From contig CANPXN010000008.1 in the NCBI GenBank assembly GCA_947586185.1, positions 1-64,000 on the forward strand: a stretch of DNA of 64,000 bases, given 5' to 3'. How positions within the stretch are numbered: position 1 is the first letter of the stretch; the number at the start of each line of letters is the position of its first letter. The notes beneath the pieces were generated by a model. That model did not search any database, had not been told where the DNA came from, and was given only the letters and a program-made list of their open reading frames with translations. Positions 46,131-56,032 of the stretch are shown here, piece by piece. The stretch comes from an uncultured Clostridia bacterium. GTDB lineage: Bacteria > Bacillota > Clostridia > Oscillospirales > Ruminococcaceae. The translations under genes were made by a program, and so were the position numbers.

Positions 46131-46140
46131 TTGCTTTTGC

Positions 46141-46170
46141 AATATTTTACAAGCCCCCCTGCATAATATA
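46141..46170 (+). promoter_or_regulatory. Sigma-E-like promoter of sigK
   Basis: AATATT (46141-46146) and CATAATATA (46162-46170) 15 bp apart resemble mother-cell sigma-E elements (ATATT and CATA-type -10). No sigma-A promoter is evident here. In Bacillus sigK is first transcribed by sigma-E, so this fits. Short motifs in AT-rich DNA make chance possible. Confidence 0.4.
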
Positions 46171-46189: not shown

Positions 46190-46549
46190 ATGATTTTGAA
46201 TATAATTAATATTGCTCTTAATAACCTTTTCTTTTTCGCCCTGCATGTTGACAGCCAGAACATATTTCCCAAGCCGCTGTCAAAAAAAGAAGAAGAAGAA
46301 TATTTTAAGCTTATGGCTGAAGGCGATTCCAAAGCAAGAGAAAAGCTTATTAACCATAACCTAAGACTTGTTGCGCATATAATCAAAAAATATTATTCCA
46401 ACATAAAGGATCAGGATGAGCTTATTTCAATCGGTACAATAGGACTTATCAAAGCTGTTTCAACCTTCGACTATTCAAAGGGGAATAAGTTTGCTACTTA
46501 TGGGAGTAAGTGTATTGAAAAAGCAACGGTATCAACACGGCTCTCATAG
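46190..46549 (+). CDS. sigK: Sporulation sigma factor SigK, N-terminal part, interrupted
   Basis: 119 residues as it stands; the first 110 are SigK, the rest read into the element. GGAGGG precedes ATG. A hydrophobic leader (about 1-23, with LNNLFFFALHV) resembles the pro-sequence removed from Bacillus pro-sigma-K. Then region 1.2/2: LMAEGDSKAREKLINHNLRL, DELISIGTIGLIKAVSTFDY, and KFATYGSKCIE, where homology stops. The missing second half begins at 55667 with NEILMHFR, exactly what should follow CIE. Sigma-K drives late mother-cell genes of sporulation. Confidence 0.93.
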   Translation: MILNIINIALNNLFFFALHVDSQNIFPKPLSKKEEEEYFKLMAEGDSKAREKLINHNLRLVAHIIKKYYSNIKDQDELISIGTIGLIKAVSTFDYSKGNKFATYGSKCIEKATVSTRLS

Positions 46550-46665
46550 CTTCAAAAGAAGCAAAGCGAGAGCCTTTTTCAAATTCATGGAAAATCTATC
46601 GGAAAGTAAGCGATTACTTCTATATTCTCTATCGCTGTCAGCGTGGCAGAGCGACTTATGCTCCC

Positions 46666-47226
46666 TTGTATATCCATTCTTTTCGATTTCTTACAAATCG
46701 ACATTTGACAAAGGCACAATACTTTCTATATAATAATCCAAATCCCGAGGTGCTTTCAACTGTATCGGACAAGCTGAAGTGGTATCGGGTAAATAACGGA
46801 CTTTTACAACGAGATATGGCTATTGCTATGGGAGTTGACAGAACGACCTATTCCCGATATGAGGAAAATGTTCTTGAAGCTTATCCGTTGGACAAGCTTG
46901 CAAAAGCCGCTGAACTCTTTCACGTTGATGTGACCGCTTTGCTTGATGATTATAACTTGTTTCTATATCATGGGCAGGGACAGCAAATAAAAAGACTGCG
47001 TAAGTCTTTGAAGCTTACGCAGTCTGAATTTGCGAAATATATGGGAGTTCCGCTTGGTACGCTTAAAAAGTGGGAGCAGAATCGGGCGAATATTCAGAAA
47101 AAGTCTTTTGAAAAGTTTTTACAGGTGCAAAATGTTAAATCAGACGCTTTACAAGCTTCTGAAACGGGTTTTGAATCCTTTTCCGAAGCCCCTGCCCTTA
47201 AAAATAGAACGGCTCAGAAAGTCTGA
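46666..47226 (+). CDS. Double XRE-type HTH protein
   Basis: 186 residues from TTG 46666. The frame is open from 46519, directly at the element's left junction, and no good ribosome site precedes any start, so the true N-terminus is uncertain. Two helix-turn-helix domains: KLKWYRVNNGLLQRDMAIAM with RTTYSRYEE, and QIKRLRKSLKLTQSEFAKYM with GTLKKWEQNR. The open upstream part (KIYRKVSDYFYILYRCQRG) looks protein-like. On the excised circle this frame joins the recombinase frame. Confidence 0.7.
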   Translation: MYIHSFRFLTNRHLTKAQYFLYNNPNPEVLSTVSDKLKWYRVNNGLLQRDMAIAMGVDRTTYSRYEENVLEAYPLDKLAKAAELFHVDVTALLDDYNLFLYHGQGQQIKRLRKSLKLTQSEFAKYMGVPLGTLKKWEQNRANIQKKSFEKFLQVQNVKSDALQASETGFESFSEAPALKNRTAQKV

Positions 47227-47237
47227 TTTTCCCTTTA

Positions 47238-48332
47238 TTAATTTGTTGTATCAGAAGAACAAATTATTCTTATAACTTGACTTTCCTGATTAAAACCAAA
47301 TTCAACATACCACCTCATAGAATCATGATTAAAGTAATAATAAATTCGCTTTTCTCCAATTTCCTCATACTCATATTCCGGCTGACCATATGCTGATATA
47401 ACATCTTCATAGGTGGAATTTCCATCAATATATTTAGATTCACCATTTACCTTTCCTTGAAAATTATATTTTGATTTATCTGCGGCATTGTTATAATCTA
47501 CTTCCGCAACATGAATTTCTGTTCCGAAATTATAAATGCTAAGTATAAGTTCTCCATATGTATGAATCTCAGCATTATCAATATCTTGAATATAGTATTT
47601 TTCAGTTTCTTCGCCAAGATATGGTGAAATATCGCTATACTCGCCAATGTATCCTTCAATATTTCCATTAAGTAATTCTTCTCTGTCAGAATGAACCTTA
47701 TAGAATAAATCTGAACCATCAAGAAACCACATCGCATTTGAATCTTTATTAGTGTATACGATATCCGAATAAATTGTATCATCTAACAGTGTAAGCGTTC
47801 CATATCCTGAGCTTCCCCATGAATCGTTCTGAAACGTAAAGTTGATAATATTTCCTTCAATATACCCATAAATTCTGTCTGTAGTCGCAGTTCTTAATGT
47901 GGGAGCTGATTGTATCGTTGAAACCATTATTTCAGCTGTTTTATCGTCAATTGAAAATATTCTTACCTCCGAACCGCCGCCCGTCTGATAAATATCAGCA
48001 GAATTTGATATATCCTTACTATACCATGTCCCGATATATGATTTATAATCAATTGTATTATCAGTTGCTTCACTGGAATCAGATGTTGTAGCGATAGAAG
48101 TGTTTATTACATCAGTTTTATTTTTTGAACCGAATTTAACAACGCTGGATATTACTATAACGGAAACAGCAAACAGAATTAAAGCAGCAGCGATTATAAT
48201 CATTTTTTTATTTGATCGGCTCTTTTGAATTGTGGTACATTTTTCAATCTGACTTTTCATGCAGTAAGGGCAAAAGCTTGAAAAATCATGAATTTCTTTC
48301 CCACAGTAATGGCATTTTTTCATATTCATCAT
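47238..48332 (-). CDS. Membrane-anchored zinc-ribbon protein
   Basis: 364 residues. A zinc ribbon at 7-27 (CHYCGKEI, FCPYCMKS), one membrane helix at about 43-66, and a large outer domain with beta-rich sequence and a SmpA/OmlA-like end (YEDVISAYGQPEYEYEEIG). The start overlaps the kinase stop (ATGA), so the kinase and this protein are coupled. It may be the kinase's sensor or target. Function unknown. Confidence 0.8.
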   Translation of the reverse strand: MMNMKKCHYCGKEIHDFSSFCPYCMKSQIEKCTTIQKSRSNKKMIIIAAALILFAVSVIVISSVVKFGSKNKTDVINTSIATTSDSSEATDNTIDYKSYIGTWYSKDISNSADIYQTGGGSEVRIFSIDDKTAEIMVSTIQSAPTLRTATTDRIYGYIEGNIINFTFQNDSWGSSGYGTLTLLDDTIYSDIVYTNKDSNAMWFLDGSDLFYKVHSDREELLNGNIEGYIGEYSDISPYLGEETEKYYIQDIDNAEIHTYGELILSIYNFGTEIHVAEVDYNNAADKSKYNFQGKVNGESKYIDGNSTYEDVISAYGQPEYEYEEIGEKRIYYYFNHDSMRWYVEFGFNQESQVIRIICSSDTTN

Positions 48333-49033
48333 TTCAGACTCCTTTTCAGTTCTTCCGCAGTCTGAAAGCGTTTGTCAGGTGAAATGTGTATGCACTTTGC
48401 AATCACATCCGCAAGTTTACCACTGTATGGAATTTTATCAGAGGTTTCACCGGTCAGCATGACTTTCATCAGTTCACCTACTTGCTTAATATCCGTCCTT
48501 TTATCGCTGACTCCGCCATATTGTTCAGGAGCAGCATAGCCAACTGTACCCAAATACTCCGTATCTCTTGGATAGTATTTCTTATAAATTCTTGCAGAAT
48601 CAAAGTCTATCAATTTCAGTATTTGCGTACCGTTTGCTATCATAATATTTTCAGCTTTAATATCCCTGTGAATGATGTTAAAACTATGTAGAAATGATAA
48701 TACATCACACAATTCCCTTACAAGCCTTTTGACCTGCTTTTCTTTGTAAAGATTGTCGTTTATCAAATCAAGCAAAGTCACACCGTCAATATATTCTTCC
48801 AGAACAAGAACCTTATCCTCAAATTCTGTAACCTCTAAGATTTCAGGCATATTTTTATGTTTCAGTGTAAGAAGCTTTCGATACACCTCGGAATTACCTG
48901 TAAAAGTACGCTTGATAATACGTTTATGCAAAGTTTTATGCTCCAATACTACTATTTCACTTTTCTCTGTTTTTCTAAGACACGTTACAAATTGATACTG
49001 CTCATTCAGTACATTTTCAAGCCATTCGTGCAA
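48329..49033 (-). CDS. Serine/threonine protein kinase-like protein
   Basis: About 234 residues from TTG 49033, which GAGGTGAT precedes; GTG 49042 is the alternative. Eukaryotic-like kinase fold: a Lys in RIIKRTF, hinge VLVLEEYIDGVTLLDLI, catalytic loop IIHRDIKAENIM, and activation segment GTVGYAAPEQYGG. The metal-binding DFG is DFD (LIDFDSARIYK). No transmembrane or PASTA segment. The minus-strand -10 (TATAAT, 49064-49069) lies back to back with the -10 of the divergent HTH gene. Confidence 0.85.
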   Translation of the reverse strand: MHEWLENVLNEQYQFVTCLRKTEKSEIVVLEHKTLHKRIIKRTFTGNSEVYRKLLTLKHKNMPEILEVTEFEDKVLVLEEYIDGVTLLDLINDNLYKEKQVKRLVRELCDVLSFLHSFNIIHRDIKAENIMIANGTQILKLIDFDSARIYKKYYPRDTEYLGTVGYAAPEQYGGVSDKRTDIKQVGELMKVMLTGETSDKIPYSGKLADVIAKCIHISPDKRFQTAEELKRSLK

Positions 49034-49063
49034 AAATATCACCTCATTGTACTTGCTTTTTCT

Positions 49064-49081
49064 ATTATACCATGATATAAT
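49064..49081. promoter_or_regulatory. Back-to-back -10 elements, kinase / HTH
   Basis: TATAAT on the minus strand (49064-49069) and on the plus strand (49076-49081) lie 6 bp apart. Divergent polymerases would compete, allowing switch-like control. Confidence 0.5.
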
Positions 49082-49116
49082 GAAAAAGTAAATATTTTCA
49101 TGAGGATTGATGTAAC

Positions 49117-49554
49117 ATGAAGCCTAAAGATACGGAAAAATTACTGGAACTATTGAAAAAAACAGGAAGTATTGACCTCTATTTGCAGGAAAACAAGGAT
49201 TTTCTGCTTGACTGCAATATTAAAGAATATCTGAATGCGCTTATCAAAGAAAAGAAACTGACTGTCGCTCAGCTCAGTAAGGATTCCGATCTTTCAGATA
49301 GGTATTGCTATCAATTTCTTTCTCCCTCCAATCCTCGTATTCCGTCAAGAGAAGTTTTGCTCTGTCTTTGTATTGGAATGAAGCTCAATCTTGACGAGGT
49401 ACAGACCGCTTTGAAGATTGCCAAATATGCACCGCTTTATCCCAAAGACGAAAGGGATAGTATTATTCTTTTTGGAATTGATAAATCTCAATCACTTATG
49501 GAAATCAATGAAGCTTTATATGACAATGGTTTCAATTGCTTATGTGAAAAGTGA
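49117..49554 (+). CDS. HTH-type protein next to the kinase
   Basis: 145 residues; ribosome site GAGGATTGATG. The central part (YLNALIKEKKLTVAQLSKDS, then YCYQFLSP and PSREVLLCLCIGMKLNLDEV) is an XRE-like helix-turn-helix. The tail is helical. HTH proteins of this kind commonly neighbour small kinases in clostridia. Probably controls the divergent pair. It is 22 nt before the next gene. Confidence 0.75.
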   Translation: MKPKDTEKLLELLKKTGSIDLYLQENKDFLLDCNIKEYLNALIKEKKLTVAQLSKDSDLSDRYCYQFLSPSNPRIPSREVLLCLCIGMKLNLDEVQTALKIAKYAPLYPKDERDSIILFGIDKSQSLMEINEALYDNGFNCLCEK

Positions 49555-49576
49555 CTTTTTAAGGAGAATTATATTT

Positions 49577-49954
49577 ATGGAAAAAAATGATACAAAAAAT
49601 CAAGCGACTAACTGCTCGGTTAACATTACTGGAAATGCATCTGGAGTTCAAATTCAGCAAAATACATCACACTCAGCTCAGAGGCAGAAAATAAATGACA
49701 ACTTTAATTATAATGAAGTATCAGAAGTGTTAGAAGAAATTTCGAAATATGAATCATTATTTAATGATGTGTTTAATCAAACAGCAGAACAAGCAAAATT
49801 AGCTTTACATAACGCTAAAGAATCGACGTTCAACAAAGAAAACCCATCAAAAATAAAAGGCTTCTTGAATATTTTAAAGGATCTTTCCTTAAAGGTTTCA
49901 TCGTCTGTAATTGCAAAAGGAATTGTTGAACTAATTAGCAAATTGAGTGTTTAA
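49577..49954 (+). CDS. Small protein paired with the AbiTii-like gene
   Basis: 125 residues from ATG 49577, preceded by AAGGAGAATT. It starts with a polar segment containing NITGNASGVQIQQNTSHSAQ, nearly repeating a motif at the C-terminus of the next gene (YGNVQDTQIQQNTDYSTQ). The rest is helical with an amphipathic, mildly hydrophobic end (VSSSVIAKGIVELISKL) that might insert in membranes. 12 nt separate it from the AbiTii gene. Function unknown; a joint abortive-infection role is inferred. Confidence 0.7.
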   Translation: MEKNDTKNQATNCSVNITGNASGVQIQQNTSHSAQRQKINDNFNYNEVSEVLEEISKYESLFNDVFNQTAEQAKLALHNAKESTFNKENPSKIKGFLNILKDLSLKVSSSVIAKGIVELISKLSV

Positions 49955-49966
49955 TAGGAGGTTTTT

Positions 49967-50614
49967 ATGTCTGGAATTGTTTTAGATTTACAAAAGGAAT
50001 CTCTTGACAATAATTGTGATATATTAAGTCTATTAAGAAAAGCTTATCTAATCGCAAAAAAATTGAAGCTAAATGATTTTGAGGAATGGATAAATAACGA
50101 ATTGAATGGTTATACAAAAGAAGAGAACATTCCAAAATATAGAGTATTTCGTGGAGAATTAAAAGCATGGAATCCGTCCTATGGGTGGGTTCCAGTAGTG
50201 CTAACTGATGATAAATGGATTAAATTATTATTATTTCAAAAATCTTATGAATCTATATCCAATTTAAAAAATATATATGAAAATTCTAACAAAAATACAT
50301 TTATGATTCAATTTAACGGAAAAATTAATCAGATTTTATCGGAGATTTGTGACTTTGAAACAAAATTTGCATTGATAGTAGGATCTAATCAAATATATAG
50401 TATAATGGAATGTATTCGTAATATAATATTAGATTGGTCAATAAAACTTGAAAAAGCTAATATCATAGGAGAAGGATTACAATTTTCAAGTGAGGAAAAG
50501 GAAACGGCTAATAATATGCCAATTATCAATAATTATATTAATAATTTTTACGGAAATGTTCAAGATACACAAATACAGCAAAATACTGATTATTCCACTC
50601 AAAGTCAGTGCTAA
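49967..50614 (+). CDS. AbiTii-domain protein (abortive infection type)
   Basis: 215 residues; GGAGG precedes ATG. The N-terminal region (IVLDLQKESLDNNCDILSLL, RKAYLIAKKLKLNDFEEWIN, NELNGY) matches the AbiTii domain, found in abortive-infection and other phage-defence proteins. The C-terminus after about residue 185 is low complexity, ending in NNFYGNVQDTQIQQNTDYST. A terminator follows. Mechanism unknown. Confidence 0.75.
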   Translation: MSGIVLDLQKESLDNNCDILSLLRKAYLIAKKLKLNDFEEWINNELNGYTKEENIPKYRVFRGELKAWNPSYGWVPVVLTDDKWIKLLLFQKSYESISNLKNIYENSNKNTFMIQFNGKINQILSEICDFETKFALIVGSNQIYSIMECIRNIILDWSIKLEKANIIGEGLQFSSEEKETANNMPIINNYINNFYGNVQDTQIQQNTDYSTQSQC

Positions 50615-50626
50615 TTCACATTAAAT

Positions 50627-50654
50627 AAAGACGGAGTTTTTACGCTCCGTCTTT
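50627..50654 (+). terminator. Terminator after the AbiTii-like gene
   Basis: 10-bp stem AAAGACGGAG / CTCCGTCTTT with an 8-nt loop. Confidence 0.75.
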
Positions 50655-50676
50655 TCTCATATGTTATGATATGTAT

Positions 50677-50850
50677 TTAATTTTGTTTCACTTTGTCACA
50701 TATCATATTTACCAAACTTTTTGCCTGCTCCTGTGATAAATGCATATGATTCATATAATTTATTACAGACTGTGCATGAACTTCTGCTATATTTTTACTT
50801 AAAGCTGCCTGAGCTTTTTCTGATTTGGGATAATGTACAATTACGTTCAT
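50677..50850 (-). CDS. 57-residue element protein downstream of rep
   Basis: 57 residues, MNVIVHYPKSEKAQAALSKN and on to ...VNMICDKVKQN; TTAGGTGATTG ribosome site before ATG 50850. Small proteins with this MNVxVHYP start and helical body are seen in clostridial integrative elements near replication genes. Candidate accessory or excision factor by position and size only. Confidence 0.65.
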   Translation of the reverse strand: MNVIVHYPKSEKAQAALSKNIAEVHAQSVINYMNHMHLSQEQAKSLVNMICDKVKQN

Positions 50851-50901
50851 GTTTCAATCACCTAACCCTTTACTGATACGATATTTATCAATGTTTGTAC
50901 A

Positions 50902-51807
50902 TTATTCCTTTTTCTTTCTCTTTGAATTATACTGGTATCTCCCAATTTTATTTACTGTAACCTGTTCCTCTGTATTTTCATAGGTCACATTGATTTCACA
51001 TGCAGAAGAATATACTAAGGTTGTTTCATCAACAAACTTTAATGCTTTTTCATAGCTTGTTTTGAATCTTGTTGGCTGAACAATTCCTTTTGAATATCCA
51101 TAAAACCGCTTATTCGGCGGATAAAACTGCAATCTTCCGTTTTTAACAATACACGTCTTTTCGGTTTGAACTTTGCTTTCGCTTTCAAAAGCATTAATAT
51201 TTTTAAGCATTGCAGTAAAGTATGCTCCAACATTATCACAGCCGACTGTTTTACCAATCCATACATAGCCATACCCCCAGAGCTTTTCAATCTGTTTATG
51301 AGGAATGGTAAAATATCCATAGTCAGACGATTTCAATAATGCATGAATATGCCACGAGCCCGTATGCTGTGGCTCAATAATACAGATAAATTCCAAGTCG
51401 TGATAATGATAGTGGAGTTTTTCCCAGAACCTCTTGAAATCCTTTGAAGCTTTATCAAAATTTGTCATTTCCTCTGCATAAGTCAAAATAATATGAAGCT
51501 CATTGATTGCTCCTGTAAAATTAGTGTTGATAAGCTGACGAAGCTTTTCAAAGGAACGATTCAGATTTCTGGTATAATTCTTTTGGCGTTTCTGATATTG
51601 TTTAACTTCACCTGTTCTTTTATCATAGTATTCATTTCTGTTGATACGTTTGATGTGTTGAAGATTGTTACATGGCTTTCGTTCCAATACTTTAAGCTCT
51701 ACTACGTTTCCTGAAAGGCAAACCTCAGTCCATGCATTTTCATGGGGAGTATAGTCATGAATCTCCTTTACAGTTACCTTTGGTTTCATTTCTTTGTTCT
51801 TGTTCAT
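50902..51807 (-). CDS. Rolling-circle (HUH) replication initiator-like protein
   Basis: 301 residues from ATG 51807 (GGAGG 8 nt upstream). Rep motifs in order: LHIILTYAEEM (motif I), PQHTGSWHIHALLKS with the metal-binding His-Ile-His (motif II), and NVGAYFTAMLKN with the probable nicking Tyr and Lys (motif III). This would nick one strand to start rolling-circle replication or transfer of the circular element. The basic N-terminus holds a second Lys/Arg-rich region. Confidence 0.7.
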   Translation of the reverse strand: MNKNKEMKPKVTVKEIHDYTPHENAWTEVCLSGNVVELKVLERKPCNNLQHIKRINRNEYYDKRTGEVKQYQKRQKNYTRNLNRSFEKLRQLINTNFTGAINELHIILTYAEEMTNFDKASKDFKRFWEKLHYHYHDLEFICIIEPQHTGSWHIHALLKSSDYGYFTIPHKQIEKLWGYGYVWIGKTVGCDNVGAYFTAMLKNINAFESESKVQTEKTCIVKNGRLQFYPPNKRFYGYSKGIVQPTRFKTSYEKALKFVDETTLVYSSACEINVTYENTEEQVTVNKIGRYQYNSKRKKKE

Positions 51808-51810
51808 AAA

Positions 51811-51910
51811 CAAGACCTCCTAAATATTGAATTTGTAGAGAAGAAATGCTTCGCAATAAACTTACTGCTTGATTCCTTTTCAATTCAAACTCGAATAACA
51901 GGAGGTCTTG
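51811..51910. repeat. 11-bp inverted repeat upstream of rep
   Basis: CAAGACCTCCT (51811-51821) and AGGAGGTCTTG (51900-51910) are perfect inverted copies 78 bp apart. The first copy contains the rep ribosome site. It may mask that site in RNA or mark an origin. Confidence 0.5.
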
Positions 51911-52051
51911 ACTCCTCATATATAAATTGTTTACATTCTATTCATATCATTGCGGATATAAAAATAAATCCCTGATTTCTCAAGGACTTTATATATTGAT
52001 TCTGTTTTTCGCCGATGTAGCGGTAATAATCAAGTTAAAGGGCATAAAAAT

Positions 52052-52076
52052 AGCACTCCACGTTTTGTGAAGTGCT
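52052..52076 (-). terminator. Terminator of the second zinc-ribbon gene
   Basis: On the minus strand AGCACTTCAC / CGTGGAGTGCT stem with AAAA loop, then ATTTTTA. Confidence 0.7.
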
Positions 52077-52094
52077 GTAAATTCTCATATGTAC

Positions 52095-52859
52095 TCAGTA
52101 TTGTCCTTCAAAAGTCTCTTGACTAATTGCTTGAATCTCAAATGCCGGGTAGTTGTTAATAGTTCCACCTTGATAAAGAATATTATCATTATAATAGGAC
52201 TTATCATTGTATGTCTGAAGAATAGATAATGAAGTCTCATAATCAATGTTCGATGTTGCCATAATACTTGGAACAACACCAAATATCTGAACCATAGTTA
52301 AATCTGTACCTGTTACCGATGGCTCCCATAAAATTGAACACTTACATAACTTATTAGAATCATTATCAACATACAGCGATATAACAAAATTTTCTTCTTC
52401 GTGATAGTATCTTACAACATAAGCATCAGTAGAATCATAATCTGTATCATCCAATTCAAAAGATTTTGGCGTTAACTGTATATTCATTTCAGTTTCATAT
52501 TCATCACCAACCACTTTTAATGAATCATTAAAACTATCACACCATTCTGAAACATCATAATTAAAAGATAATCCATTATAGTTATCTGCTTTAATTGTAA
52601 GGTTTTCAGAATCATCACCACCAACAGCACAAGCAATCACAATGATAATCAATACAGCAAAAACACCAATTACAATCCACTTTGCCTTTGATTTTTTCTT
52701 GACCGCAACAGTGCCTCCAGAACTTGCAATAGCAGTCTGAAAAGCCCCTGCACCAATCGGATTTGCTTGTACAGTATCATTTGATTCAGCCTTTGTACCG
52801 CATTCAGGACAGAATGCAGAACCGTCTTGCATTTCTTTTCCACAGTTTTTACAAAACAT
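52095..52859 (-). CDS. Second membrane-anchored zinc-ribbon protein
   Basis: 254 residues. Zinc ribbon at 3-22 (CKNCGKEM, FCPECGTKA), membrane helix at about 65-82 (KWIVIGVFAVLIIIVIACAV), then an outer beta-rich domain. The layout is the same as the protein at 47238-48332 without obvious sequence identity in the outer part. It is the second gene of a pair, starting 3 nt after the PUA/EVE-like gene. Confidence 0.78.
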   Translation of the reverse strand: MFCKNCGKEMQDGSAFCPECGTKAESNDTVQANPIGAGAFQTAIASSGGTVAVKKKSKAKWIVIGVFAVLIIIVIACAVGGDDSENLTIKADNYNGLSFNYDVSEWCDSFNDSLKVVGDEYETEMNIQLTPKSFELDDTDYDSTDAYVVRYYHEEENFVISLYVDNDSNKLCKCSILWEPSVTGTDLTMVQIFGVVPSIMATSNIDYETSLSILQTYNDKSYYNDNILYQGGTINNYPAFEIQAISQETFEGQY

Positions 52860-52861
52860 TG

Positions 52862-53308
52862 TTAAACCTCCAGTTCATAATCAAATTTTATCAATTTTTG
52901 AATAACAGAAATATTTTTTTCGTTTTTCTCTTCATATACCGTATGGGTGCGATTGCCACCAATTTTAAATTTATCCATAGATAATGGAATATATGGTTTG
53001 AACTTCTTAAACCATATTACAGAAACGCCCAACTTATCAATAAACTTTTCAGAAATATTATCCACTTGTTTCTCACCTGAAACTATCCCTATGGCTTTTA
53101 CATAATATATTGGATTTGTTTCAGGCACATAGGCTTTGGCTATTAAGATATCCCCTTTCTTTATTTGCATTATTAGTTCGGCATAATTAGGCTTTTCTTC
53201 CTCTGAATACCCCATACACCAAAAATCATTGTCTAAGAATACATCAAGATATTCTTTTTCATTTGGAGTTTTTCCACCCCAAACAGTACCTACACCATAA
53301 AACCTCAT
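52862..53308 (-). CDS. PUA/EVE-like domain protein
   Basis: 148 residues from ATG 53308 (MRFYGVGTVWGG), which follows TTGGAGG; the longer frame has no such signal. The pattern W-x-MGY ... MQIKKGDILIAKAYVP ... IYYVKAIGIVSGE resembles EVE/PUA-like folds, which bind modified bases and recur in restriction and defence proteins. Confidence in the family is modest. It is the first gene of the pair with the zinc-ribbon gene. Confidence 0.55.
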   Translation of the reverse strand: MRFYGVGTVWGGKTPNEKEYLDVFLDNDFWCMGYSEEEKPNYAELIMQIKKGDILIAKAYVPETNPIYYVKAIGIVSGEKQVDNISEKFIDKLGVSVIWFKKFKPYIPLSMDKFKIGGNRTHTVYEEKNEKNISVIQKLIKFDYELEV

Positions 53309-53435
53309 ATTTATACCTCCAAGCAAATTTTTCTTTATTATACCACAAATAATGCCTATAGTCAAGATAAAATGCTTATAATAAATTTATTAGAATTTGT
53401 AAATCCTGTATAATAATAAGCAAGGAAGTGAAGCT

Positions 53436-53774
53436 ATGGAAAAGGAACTTGACTATACCGCATTGGGAATCAGAATTCGTCAGGCACGAAAGGAACGTCA
53501 TGTAACGCAAGAACAGCTTGGCGAATTGTGCGAACTATCAACTGCTCACATTGGTCACATCGAAAGAGGCACTCGTATACCATCTATTGACACATTATTT
53601 CGTATTGCTCAGGCTTTAGATGTCAGCATGGATTATTTGATTTTTGATTCAATTGCACCTGACGAAAATCTGTTTACTACAATAAATTCCATACTTCAAG
53701 GCAAGGATAAGCGAAAGGTCAAAACATTCATGACAATAGTTCGAGCCTTATCTGATAAAATCGACGAATTTTAA
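53436..53774 (+). CDS. XRE family transcriptional regulator
   Basis: 112 residues. Classical HTH: LGIRIRQARKERHVTQEQLG, ELSTAHIGHIERGTRIPSID, LFRIAQALDVSMDYLIF. A -10 (TATAAT, about 53410) and GAAGTGAAG precede the ATG. It is divergent from the PUA/EVE gene and upstream of the recombinase, a typical place for an element repressor. Confidence 0.88.
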   Translation: MEKELDYTALGIRIRQARKERHVTQEQLGELCELSTAHIGHIERGTRIPSIDTLFRIAQALDVSMDYLIFDSIAPDENLFTTINSILQGKDKRKVKTFMTIVRALSDKIDEF

Positions 53775-53778
53775 CAAA

Positions 53779-53814
53779 ATGCCCTATGATGATTATAACA
53801 CATCACAGGGCATT
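53779..53814 (+). terminator. Terminator after the XRE regulator
   Basis: AATGCCCTATGATG / CATCACAGGGCATT stem with an 8-nt loop. Confidence 0.7.
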
Positions 53815-53870
53815 CTTATTGCATCAATCTGCTGCAATTTCAAAATTTTCTCAAATTTCAAAAATACTGT

Positions 53871-53899
53871 TTGCTTTTTCACGAAATTTGCGGTATAAT
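53871..53899 (+). promoter_or_regulatory. Sigma-A-like promoter of the recombinase
   Basis: TTGCTT (53871-53876), a 17-bp spacer and TATAAT (53894-53899). No clear sigma-E element was seen, unlike the sporulation-controlled skin recombinase of Bacillus. Confidence 0.6.
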
Positions 53900-53964
53900 A
53901 GTTTTAGGGGCAAAAGCCGCAATGATAAAAAACCATATGAACACACACATAAGGAGCAAGCTTT

Positions 53965-55671
53965 ATGAATGATAACCGAAAATTTGCGATATACTCCCGA
54001 AAGTCCAAATTCACAGGCAAGGGAGAAAGTATCGGAAACCAGATTGAATTATGCAGACAAAACATTCATTTGTCCTATCCCGATATATCAGACGATGATA
54101 TTCTCATATTTGAAGATGAGGGATTTTCAGGCGGTAATACAAATCGTCCGCAGTTTCAGGAAATGCTGAAATTGTGCCGTCAGAAACAAATCAGATGTAT
54201 TGTTTGCTACCGATTAGACCGAATCAGCCGAAATGTGAGTGATTACTCTGCTTTGATAGAAGAACTCAATAGGTTAGATGTTTCTTTTATTTCTATCAAC
54301 GAAAAGTTTGATACGTCTACTTCCATGGGCAGAGCTATGATGTACATCGCTTCTGTATTCGCACAGTTGGAACGTGAAACGATTGCAGAACGTATTCGTG
54401 ATAATATGCTAGAGCTTGCCAAAGACGGCAGGTGGCTTGGGGGAAATCCTCCCACGGGTTACAGAAGCGTGGAAACAGTCGGAAGTGTTACAATAGACGG
54501 CAAAAAGCGAAAAGCTCGTAAATTAGAGCTAATAAGGGAAGAAGCGGAAGTTGTAAAACTGATATATGCAAAATTCCTTGAATTTAATTCGCTTACGAAA
54601 ACAGAAACATATCTGATTCAGAATAACTACCTGACCAAAACAGGAAAATATTTTTCACGCTTTGCAATCAAAAATATCCTGACAAATCCCGTTTATCTCA
54701 TTGCAGATGAACAAGCGTGGAATTACTTTGATATAAAAGATGTGGATGTTTTTTCAGAAGAATCAGATTTCAACGGAAAATACGGCATCATGGCATACAA
54801 CAAAACCAGTCAGCAGGTAGGACGTGCCAATGAAGTCCGTGATATGAAAGACTGGATTATCGCAGTCGGAAAACATAAAGGAATTATCAGTGGGCATGAT
54901 TGGGTGGAGGTACAAAAGCTACTCAGCCAAAACAAGTCAAAATCCTATCGCAAATCGAGAAGCAATGTTGCATTATTGTCAGGTCTGCTTTTCTGTGGGA
55001 ATTGCGGAAGCTATATGCGCCCAAAGCTTTCACAGAGAAAAAATAAAGACGGTGAACTAATTTATGACTATCTTTGCGAACTGAAAGAAAAGAGCAAAAG
55101 TCAGAAATGTGATATGAAACGTCCAAACGGTAATGAACTTGATAAAGCAATTTGTGAGGAAATCAAAAAGCTTTCCGAAGATAAATCGTCGTTTCTGTCT
55201 ATGCTCAAAAAAGAGCAGAAGAACCTAAATATCAATGACGCTTCTTATCAGGAGAAATTGAAGTCACTCCGGAAATCCAAGTCAGATCATGAAGCCAAAA
55301 TCAAAAGCCTTGTTCTATCCTTGACACAATCGGAAAACACCCCTGCCCATGACTACATCTTGCACGAAATCAACGCTCTTGACGAAAAAACAAAAGCCAT
55401 ACAAGCTCAGATTCAGGAATACGAGGATTTAGCAAAAACAGGGATAATGTCCGACAGTGAGTTTGAAGGTCTTGCAGATATGATGTTGTCCTTTGCAGAT
55501 TCTTTTGACAGTATGTCCGTGGAACAAAAACGCTCTGCAATACGTGCATTTATCCGTAAAATTGTATGGGACGGTGAGAATATCCACATTTATTTCTTTG
55601 GTTCAGATGACAATGAAATAGACCTCTCCGATACAGAAAATATAGAGCCGCTATGTACGGGTTGTAAATGA
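53965..55671 (+). CDS. Large serine recombinase of the sigK element
   Basis: 568 residues; AAGGAG before ATG. Resolvase catalytic domain with the nucleophile Ser in IYSRKSKFTG, then YRLDRISRN and FAQLERETIAERI; recombinase domain (GNPPTGYR, NYLTKTGKYFSRFAIKNILT); zinc ribbon (LFCGNCGSYM, then YLCELKEKSKSQKC); and a long coiled coil (about 390-500). This is the SpoIVCA-like layout of skin excisases. The last Lys codon is the AAA core and the TGA at 55669-55671 lies in sigK DNA, so excision removes the stop from the circle. Confidence 0.95.
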   Translation: MNDNRKFAIYSRKSKFTGKGESIGNQIELCRQNIHLSYPDISDDDILIFEDEGFSGGNTNRPQFQEMLKLCRQKQIRCIVCYRLDRISRNVSDYSALIEELNRLDVSFISINEKFDTSTSMGRAMMYIASVFAQLERETIAERIRDNMLELAKDGRWLGGNPPTGYRSVETVGSVTIDGKKRKARKLELIREEAEVVKLIYAKFLEFNSLTKTETYLIQNNYLTKTGKYFSRFAIKNILTNPVYLIADEQAWNYFDIKDVDVFSEESDFNGKYGIMAYNKTSQQVGRANEVRDMKDWIIAVGKHKGIISGHDWVEVQKLLSQNKSKSYRKSRSNVALLSGLLFCGNCGSYMRPKLSQRKNKDGELIYDYLCELKEKSKSQKCDMKRPNGNELDKAICEEIKKLSEDKSSFLSMLKKEQKNLNINDASYQEKLKSLRKSKSDHEAKIKSLVLSLTQSENTPAHDYILHEINALDEKTKAIQAQIQEYEDLAKTGIMSDSEFEGLADMMLSFADSFDSMSVEQKRSAIRAFIRKIVWDGENIHIYFFGSDDNEIDLSDTENIEPLCTGCK

Positions 55672-56032
55672 AATCCTAATGCACTTCCGCTCACAAAAGA
55701 AAACTCTGGGAGATGTTTATATTGATGAGCCAATTGATACTGATAAGGATGGTAACACTCTCACCCTAATGGATATAGTAGCCGATGAAAACAATATTCT
55801 TGATCAGGTTGACCTTGTTATAAGATCTCAGCAGCTTTACCGGTTTCTTAACTGCTGCCTTGACAAACGTGAAATTGAAATCATTAAACACAGATATGGC
55901 TTGTACGGCAATCCTCCCCTTACTCAAAGGGAAGTTTCGAAAATGCTGGGTATTTCAAGATCATATGTATCAAGAATAGAAACAAAGGCGCTTGCCAAAC
56001 TCAAAAAGATGTATGACAAAACGCCTTACTGA
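55667..56032 (+). CDS. sigK: SigK, C-terminal part
   Basis: 121 residues counted from AAT 55667; first internal ATG 55679. NEILMHFRSQKKTLGDVYID continues the N-terminal half exactly at CIE. Region 3 is followed by region 4 with DKREIEIIKHRYGL and the recognition helix LTQREVSKMLGISRSYVSRI, typical of SigK/SigE. Without element excision it has no ribosome site and no region 2, hence no function. The whole reading frame is intact, so the gene is not decaying. Confidence 0.93.
   Translation, partial: NEILMHFRSQKKTLGDVYIDEPIDTDKDGNTLTLMDIVADENNILDQVDLVIRSQQLYRFLNCCLDKREIEIIKHRYGLYGNPPLTQREVSKMLGISRSYVSRIETKALAKLKKMYDKTPY

Follow-up and report, generated by a model that had tools for sequence, protein, structure and literature searches.

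The 64,000-nucleotide stretch analysed here (the window; positions 1 to 64,000 of contig CANPXN010000008.1, assembly GCA_947586185.1) comes from an uncultured Clostridia bacterium of the Ruminococcaceae, and carries a copy of the sporulation sigma factor gene sigK that is interrupted by an element resembling the skin elements of other sporulating bacteria. The genome that contains it (G000) is a 2.44-Mb draft in 60 contigs; in what follows, G numbers denote genomes and L numbers denote loci. The parts of the locus that bear directly on the split are these:

46190..46519, + strand: 5' half of sigK, codons 1-110 (last codon E110), Pfam Sigma70_r2
46519..46521, + strand: attL core AAA, with the predicted crossover dinucleotide AA at 46520-46521, from joint reconstruction
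53965..55671, + strand: large serine recombinase with Resolvase, Recombinase and zinc-ribbon domains, the predicted agent of both integration and excision
55666..55668, + strand: attR core AAA, from joint reconstruction
55669..56032, + strand: 3' part of sigK, from within codon 111 to the stop, Pfam Sigma70_r4

We confirm that sigK is split by a 9,147-bp element, with both halves in the same orientation. The initial annotation had described two halves about 9.1 kb apart, a serine recombinase abutting the right half, and a shared AAA at both joints whose joining restores a 231-residue SigK without a frameshift. Each of these points held: the halves lie at 46190-46519 and 55669-56032, the spacing of the two AAA cores (9,147 bp) is the length of the element, and the recombinase open reading frame (ORF) ends in the six bases 55666-55671, which include the right core. 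The halves share the AAA and can be joined in silico in four equivalent ways, each giving the same in-frame 231-amino-acid protein with CIENEILMHF at the joint, and the crossover AA corresponds to nucleotides 331-332 of sigK, the first two bases of the Asn111 codon. Failure of the joined protein to align end to end with SigK had been named beforehand as grounds for giving up the reading; the protein aligned over its full length with the NCBIfam SigK model NF004471 (297.2 bits, above the cut-off of 252), and also end to end with a second SigK model, TIGR02846, at 287 bits, below the cut-off of 298.65. The NCBIfam SigK models outscored the SigE models on the joined protein, and its alignment to the SigK model begins at residue 1.

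The predicted empty site was found among relatives. Among the 11 same-genus genomes searched, G010 and G007 carry an uninterrupted sigK, and G010 reads TGTATTGAAAATGAAAT at the joint. A 7.6-kb homologous element with an 89% identical recombinase occupies the same sigK site in G005 (L076), where a frame-based search gave the same AAA joint; an element of the same type lies at this site in G266 (L075), and pieces of an element with a 65% identical recombinase lie on two contigs in G008. The same arrangement in G005 and G266, together with the uninterrupted TGTATTGAAAATGAAAT in G010, makes chance or an assembly error a very unlikely source of the split. No sigK half or full sigK was found in G001, G003, G004 and G006, which gave SigE-like or more distant matches only.

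The arrangement extends through the family. In a sample of 297 family genomes, 268 gave a SigK match, and 119 were searched again. Of these, 57 had at least three matches or a best match that was weak; in most of the remaining 62 the best match was weak as well, and G059 was included owing to a weak match to the small protein o57 described below. Both sigK halves, broken at residues ~107-124, were present in 33 of the 297, the window's genome included, and one half or fragment broken here was present in 15 more; the resulting 48 genomes split at the window site include G103 (3' half upstream of the 5' half), G188 (3' halves only) and G245 (a fragment). Most other family genomes gave a near-full-length SigK match, among the matches listed. 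When the 3' half and its upstream DNA were read in 34 further genomes split at this site, a serine recombinase lay directly upstream on the same strand in 26 loci. In G123 (L169) it lay reversed by the 5' half, the contigs of G093 and G110 end too soon to show it, and none was seen by the 3' half in G064, G060, G103, G188 and G217. Two of these loci are unusual in themselves: G188 (L197, L198) has four copies of the SigK 3' half, with no 5' half found and no recombinase beside the 3' halves, and in G103 (L207, L199) both halves are on one strand, with the 3' half preceding the 5' half by 48 kb.

Two further sites in sigK are interrupted in this family. The second, near residue 140 (DKDGNQLTL), was found in G002 (L038, L039), G144 (L195, L196) and G009 (L040), the last with a 3' half only, from residue 139, at a contig end. 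The second-site recombinases are 22-23% identical to that of the window; they adjoin the 3' half in G002 (22% identity, with the 5' half on another contig) and, reversed, the 5' half in G144. Near the G002 5' half is an ORF that, judged by eye, resembles a phage amidase. The third, near residue 65, emerged from a check of four genomes with matches starting near residue 60: in G047 (L334), SigK residues 9-67 lie 6.2 kb before residues 60-223 and a serine recombinase ends on the 5' part in the opposite direction, and G057 (L335), G020 (L336) and G279 (L337) have the 3' part only.

Beyond the family, the recombinase itself leads to sigK. A GTDB scan with the window recombinase gave 414 relatives, and a sigK half or fragment lies at or near the recombinase 3' end in 75 of the best 80, which were kept. 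In 68 of these 80 the recombinase is followed immediately by a SigK 3' half in the same orientation; in L114, L124 and L148 the 5' half is inverted at the recombinase end, in L080, L081 and L122 a truncated 3' half lies there, and in L140 the 3' half lies 1.4 kb further on. Four contigs end within 129 bases of the recombinase, and L090 (Pectinatus brassicae) is the sole one of the 80 without a sigK half. Hosts, by record title, include Ruminococcus, Lacrimispora, Flavonifractor, Sporomusa ovata, Holdemania, Acutalibacter and Faecalibacterium prausnitzii. Faecalibacterium prausnitzii is regarded as non-sporing; in strain APC923/61-1 (L139) the recombinase adjoins a diverged SigK 3' half (37%). 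In L114, L124, L148, L169 and L279 the recombinase end abuts a reversed sigK 5' half, as if the element had inserted in the opposite orientation. The last of these is an IMG/VR contig with o57 and a 47% identical recombinase, and from it the recombinase and o57 may also ride on phages. The ~39% identical recombinases of viral contigs were dropped as a sigK-site group, there being no SigK match in their loci; in one (L294), an unrelated gene follows, with 10 kb downstream covered.

The recombination site is consistent across these elements. When joints were sought with CI[ED] on the left side and NE on the right, 21 of 31 elements tried were solved and 10 gave no automatic joint; all 13 family elements tried have both half-motifs, with the rest of SigK following in frame. 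The AA at the left crossover point is present in 20 of the 21 solved elements, and this left AA alone counts as an observation, the right-hand AA and NE being built into the search pattern. The attP sites reconstructed from element ends are dyad-symmetric, with a mean score of 12.5/20 over the 21 elements (L088 and L107 kept in the means with mislocated joints) against 5.4 for shuffled halves; halves swapped between elements scored 10.9, attB 6.5 and the window attP itself 10. A scan of viral contigs for a free circle with attP 16-mers gave 62 matches, which we take as chance because none had a match to the window query proteins (recombinase, o57 and SigK included). AATGA, the core in B. subtilis, was dropped as a marker of the window site, since B. 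cereus strains are reported to have it at nt 423 (PMC10745906).

Besides the recombinase, one small gene accompanies the split, and the following features concern it and its expression:

50677..50850, - strand: o57, a 57-amino-acid basic protein with two predicted helices, predicted recombination directionality factor (element clustering and structure model)
50882..50905, - strand: predicted sigma-E/SpoIIID-like promoter upstream of o57 (pattern match)
46140..46169, + strand: predicted sigma-E-like promoter of sigK, CAATATT-15-CATAATAT, with a SpoIIID-like TTACAAG box (pattern match)

We extracted 33 complete elements of 2.7-13.9 kb, 15 of them in family genomes and 18 in loci of the GTDB scan, and clustered their ORFs; o57 was the only near-universal gene besides the recombinase-frame clusters. 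It is present in 32 of the 33, 28 by clustering, three by weak profile matches (G076, G109 and G123, by profile only, E 1e-5 to 3e-6) and one at an interval edge (L140); in the exception, G064, neither o57 nor a recombinase was recognised. In the family sample the o57 profile matches 33 of 297 genomes, 31 of them strongly (E < 1e-9; G059 and G183, at 3e-6 and 3e-5, were excluded), and sigK is split at the window site in 28 of these 31 (Fisher p = 4e-23, from a hand tally with 48 split genomes of 297 and uncorrected for relatedness). Across 391 genomes of the class, o57 occurs in 10, eight of them outside the family, and all eight have a sigK half broken at the window site within ~10 kb, one (G544) being the same contig as L137 of the element set and thus not independent. 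The predicted structure consists of two helices with a mean predicted local distance difference test score (pLDDT) of 90, and the profile gave one match among PDB sequences (E 0.005, 26 positions). By analogy with CD1234 of Clostridioides difficile, we predict that o57 is the recombination directionality factor that limits excision to the mother cell. It is also conceivable, though we consider it unlikely, that this role falls to another element gene, such as the helix-turn-helix (HTH) protein at 46666-47226, or to a host protein: o57 lies kilobases away from the recombinase in many elements, the window's included, and the HTH protein is common too and adjoins attL, but in the ORF clustering the HTH cluster covered 14 of the 33 elements and that of o57 covered 28.

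The sequences upstream of o57 share the motif AT[AG]nn[GT][GT]ACAn10[CA]ATA, whose shape resembles that of a sigma-E promoter with a SpoIIID box. The published description of the CD1234 promoter agrees with this reading (PMC5025042). Across the 33 elements (238,847 bp) the motif occurs 23 times, and 21 of these matches lie no more than 150 bases before o57 and on the same strand as that gene; ten shuffles gave 0 or 1 match each. The pattern precedes o57 in 21 of 28 elements. A narrower form, with A at the third base, has two matches in the 64-kb window, one upstream of sigK and one upstream of o57, a number reached in 0 of 100 shuffles. By eye, several sigK upstream regions have related ATAGGACA or CAAGC...CATA forms.

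Whether such a gene is still in use can be judged from its divergence. The window sigK halves, compared with G005, G266 and G008, have ratios of nonsynonymous to synonymous differences per site (pN/pS) of 0.16-0.27, like uninterrupted sigK, with synonymous sites nearly saturated and part of the divergence possibly predating the insertion. Conservation of this kind, an intact recombinase frame and the presence of Spo0A, SpoIIID, SpoIVA and a SigE-like factor in the window genome all speak against sigK being dead here, that is, against an insertion that ended SigK function in an organism that no longer completes sporulation; some insertions elsewhere do look decayed (L081, with a short piece of the 3' half only, and the G064 element, with no recognised recombinase or o57), and for the window we regard this explanation as highly improbable. 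A sharper comparison comes from eight Lacrimispora-type loci that share the split (L093, L107, L109 and L129 titled Lacrimispora, the rest titled Clostridium, Hungatella or Paenibacillaceae), with up to 93 and 115 codons aligned in the two halves. Their recombinase pS (0.14-0.82) tracks that of the 3' half (0.09-0.88), with 0.03-0.52 in the 5' half, from which we take the split to be old, and pN is 0-0.021 in the 5' half and 0-0.063 in the 3' half. Between L107 and L109, the 3' half has zero nonsynonymous changes at pS 0.42, and the 5' half has pN 0.005 at pS 0.155. On these substitution patterns, purifying selection is holding both halves while they are split, which would be hard to explain without regular reassembly.

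This conservation also bears on the possibility of an ordinary integrative mobile element sitting in sigK by happenstance, excising randomly or under stress outside sporulation and tolerated by its host. In the comparison of G000 with G005 the element genes do seem younger than those of the host (pS 0.26-0.67, recombinase 0.57, versus 0.75 for SigA, 0.84 for SigE and 0.79 for sigK), which suggests transfer of the element after these hosts diverged; the G266 pair has no such drop (element pS 0.64-0.86), and G008 is mixed (0.45-0.73 versus 0.67 for SigA). The replication initiator, AbiT and kinase cargo resemble those of mobile elements, and the IMG/VR contig L279 points the same way. Against happenstance stand the selection on both halves in the Lacrimispora-type loci and the sigma-E-like pattern found before o57 in most elements and before the window sigK as well, and we consider this explanation improbable.

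We therefore favour programmed excision, as the initial annotation did: at a probability of about 85%, the element would be excised precisely by its own recombinase in the sporulating mother cell, restoring SigK, with o57 likely turning the recombinase to excision. From sequence comparison, we infer that this is a programmed event in the window organism. Sigma-E and SpoIIID would turn on sigK and o57 in the mother cell; the recombinase and o57 would then recombine attL and attR at the central AA of the Asn111 codon; and the excised circle would be lost with the mother cell, the spore keeping the split gene. Entry into an empty sigK would take place by attP x attB.

Several results weigh against this reading. 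Three family genomes with a strong o57 match have no split: G276, in which no sigK was found, and G281 and G293, which have an uninterrupted sigK-like gene. Conversely, 20 of the 48 genomes split here have no strong o57 match, some of their contigs being short. The 33 complete elements are not phylogenetically independent. As for o57 itself, 491 relatives were found by protein search at E <= 0.01, and none of the 120 listed has a Pfam domain, a single stray label being the only functional name among them; o57 has no match in PHROG, and its model gave no useful match among PDB folds. The in-sample promoter counts are partly circular because the pattern was read from the same regions, with one base widened for sigK; outside the family the pattern precedes five of eight o57 genes, one of them not independent. 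A slightly looser pattern matches one of 55 sigK upstream regions, the window's own, so that the pattern shared by sigK and o57 is not general, and a general sigma-E scan of the element did no better than chance (16 matches versus a shuffle mean of 14.0). Finally, the sigma-70 scan lists no promoter just upstream of the recombinase, where there is a TATAAT with a poor -35. Two of the genomes named above deserve a remark of their own: in G281, o57 adjoins a recombinase at a contig end, and in G293 (L203) an o57-like gene, perhaps the scar of a lost element, lies 1.7 kb upstream of the uninterrupted sigK; no recombinase could be recognised across the 9 kb of this locus that were read.

Among known systems, the closest is skinCd of C. 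difficile, a 14.6-kb element with the recombinase CD1231 and the directionality factor CD1234 (PMC5025042; PMC10745906; PMC4430133). As in the window, sigK is split, the recombinase gene lies directly upstream of the 3' half, and the element is small and without phage particles; the small partner is under sigma-E/SpoIIID control there, as predicted for o57. The two differ in length (14.6 versus 9.1 kb), in the small partner (72 amino acids and isoelectric point 5.5 for CD1234, 57 and 8.9 for o57) and in the joint (a 12-bp motif versus AAA); in addition, C. difficile SigK has no pro-sequence, whereas the window SigK aligns to the SigK model from residue 1. The skin element of B. subtilis likewise splits sigK and encodes a serine recombinase (SpoIVCA) and a small directionality factor (Skr), and its excision restores SigK (PMC6957869; PMC10745906). 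It is, however, 48 kb long and prophage-like, unlike the 9.1-kb window element with no recognised structural genes; its recombinase adjoins the 5' half in the opposite direction, whereas that of the window adjoins the 3' half, and Skr overlaps spoIVCA. The B. cereus group has several unrelated sigK insertions, one with a type I restriction-modification phage defence, and these lie at nt 195 or 423, so that the window site at nt 331-332 differs from them (PMC10745906). Those positions roughly match the family sites near codons 65 and 141: the Bcbva insertion at nt 195 resembles the third-site arrangement of G047, and the B. cereus AH820 insertion at nt 423 is close to the second site near residue 140 (PMC10745906). 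Clostridium perfringens phiS63 and the sigK phages of C. tetani and Alicyclobacillus also combine insertion in sigK with a site-specific recombinase, but these are phages or prophages with structural genes, none of which was recognised in the window element (PMC13141910; PMC5553647).

Our literature search, which left subscription papers mostly outside its reach, found sigK elements in Bacillus, the B. cereus group, C. difficile, C. perfringens, C. tetani and Alicyclobacillus only, and within that scope it agrees with the initial annotation, which was aware of no case in this group; a gut-phage review of 2025 names B. subtilis and C. difficile as sigK-element hosts (PMC11959909). By analogy, then, the window element probably works like skin and is in its anatomy most like skinCd, with CD1231 and CD1234 set beside it by description. 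Relative to known cases, four features appear new: a site distinct from those of the B. cereus insertions, another small partner, a non-phage cargo, and a recombinase family almost always beside sigK.

The remaining features of the element are as follows:

46539..46574, + strand: terminator-like hairpin followed by TTTTT, just inside attL (z = -4.83; function inferred from its form)
46666..47226, + strand: two-domain HTH (XRE-type) regulator, first gene past attL, in many relatives (profile and relatives' loci)
47238..48332, - strand: cargo protein with a weak zinc-ribbon match (Pfam, below cut-off)
48329..49042, - strand: Ser/Thr protein kinase, cargo, PD-T4-6-like among other or generic kinase matches (Pfam, NCBIfam, PADLOC)
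49117..49554, + strand: 145-amino-acid protein with a faint HTH match, kept in close relatives (Pfam, relatives)
49571..49954, + strand: AbiTi, abortive-infection cargo (PADLOC E 1e-40; start codon picked within a longer frame)
49967..50614, + strand: AbiTii, abortive-infection cargo (Pfam E 2e-46, PADLOC E 1e-46)
50902..51813, - strand: rolling-circle replication initiator, REP_ORF2-G2P (Pfam E 4e-14, PHROG 3419 E 1e-16)
52095..52859, - strand: zinc-ribbon protein, cargo (Pfam)
52862..53365, - strand: 167-amino-acid protein without an assigned function, in several relatives (relatives' loci)
53436..53774, + strand: HTH (XRE-type) regulator upstream of the recombinase (Pfam, relatives)

The terminator-like hairpin may end transcription of sigK ahead of excision; it is absent from the output of a simple scan, and part of its stem coincides with the CGGCTC arm of the attP predicted here. 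A 12/12 sigma-70 promoter match (TTGACA-18-TATAAT, 46705-46734) lies within the 5' end of the first HTH ORF, whose true start may for this reason be further in. PHROG recognised no phage structural genes among the ten element proteins scanned, Rfam reported nothing at gathering thresholds, and the repeat families listed by a search over 10 kb were all short and chance-like. The window genome as a whole has 21 serine-recombinase matches to the window recombinase, some being two pieces of one ORF. The AbiTi-AbiTii pair (49571-50614) lies within the sigK element; the element of G005 gave no reported match to AbiTii. Cargo such as AbiT may pay for the element's place in its host, and, together with the restriction-modification system described for the Bcbva sigK insertion, this pair suggests that phage defence may recur as cargo (PMC10745906).

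Programmed excision from sigK, a textbook case, is known in a handful of species. The comparisons above make it likely that programmed repair of sigK is far commoner than the few described cases. We lean, with some reserve, towards a broader picture in which a two-gene excision module, consisting of a serine-recombinase family and a family of 55-75-amino-acid directionality factors switched by sigma-E and SpoIIID, would have reached many families of Clostridia and related groups by way of small non-phage islands able to carry phage defence. With the two further sigK sites in the family, programmed DNA elimination would then be a common means of controlling sporulation that commensal Firmicutes have acquired repeatedly. 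If this is true, sigK excision would be widespread in Clostridia and kin, mostly through one recombinase and partner at this site, moving between species, and annotation may score sigK as missing or broken where the gene is merely split. The analysis supplies a candidate recombinase and directionality-factor pair, and cultured hosts such as Lacrimispora, Sporomusa and Flavonifractor would allow one to ask why sporulating bacteria keep such elements.

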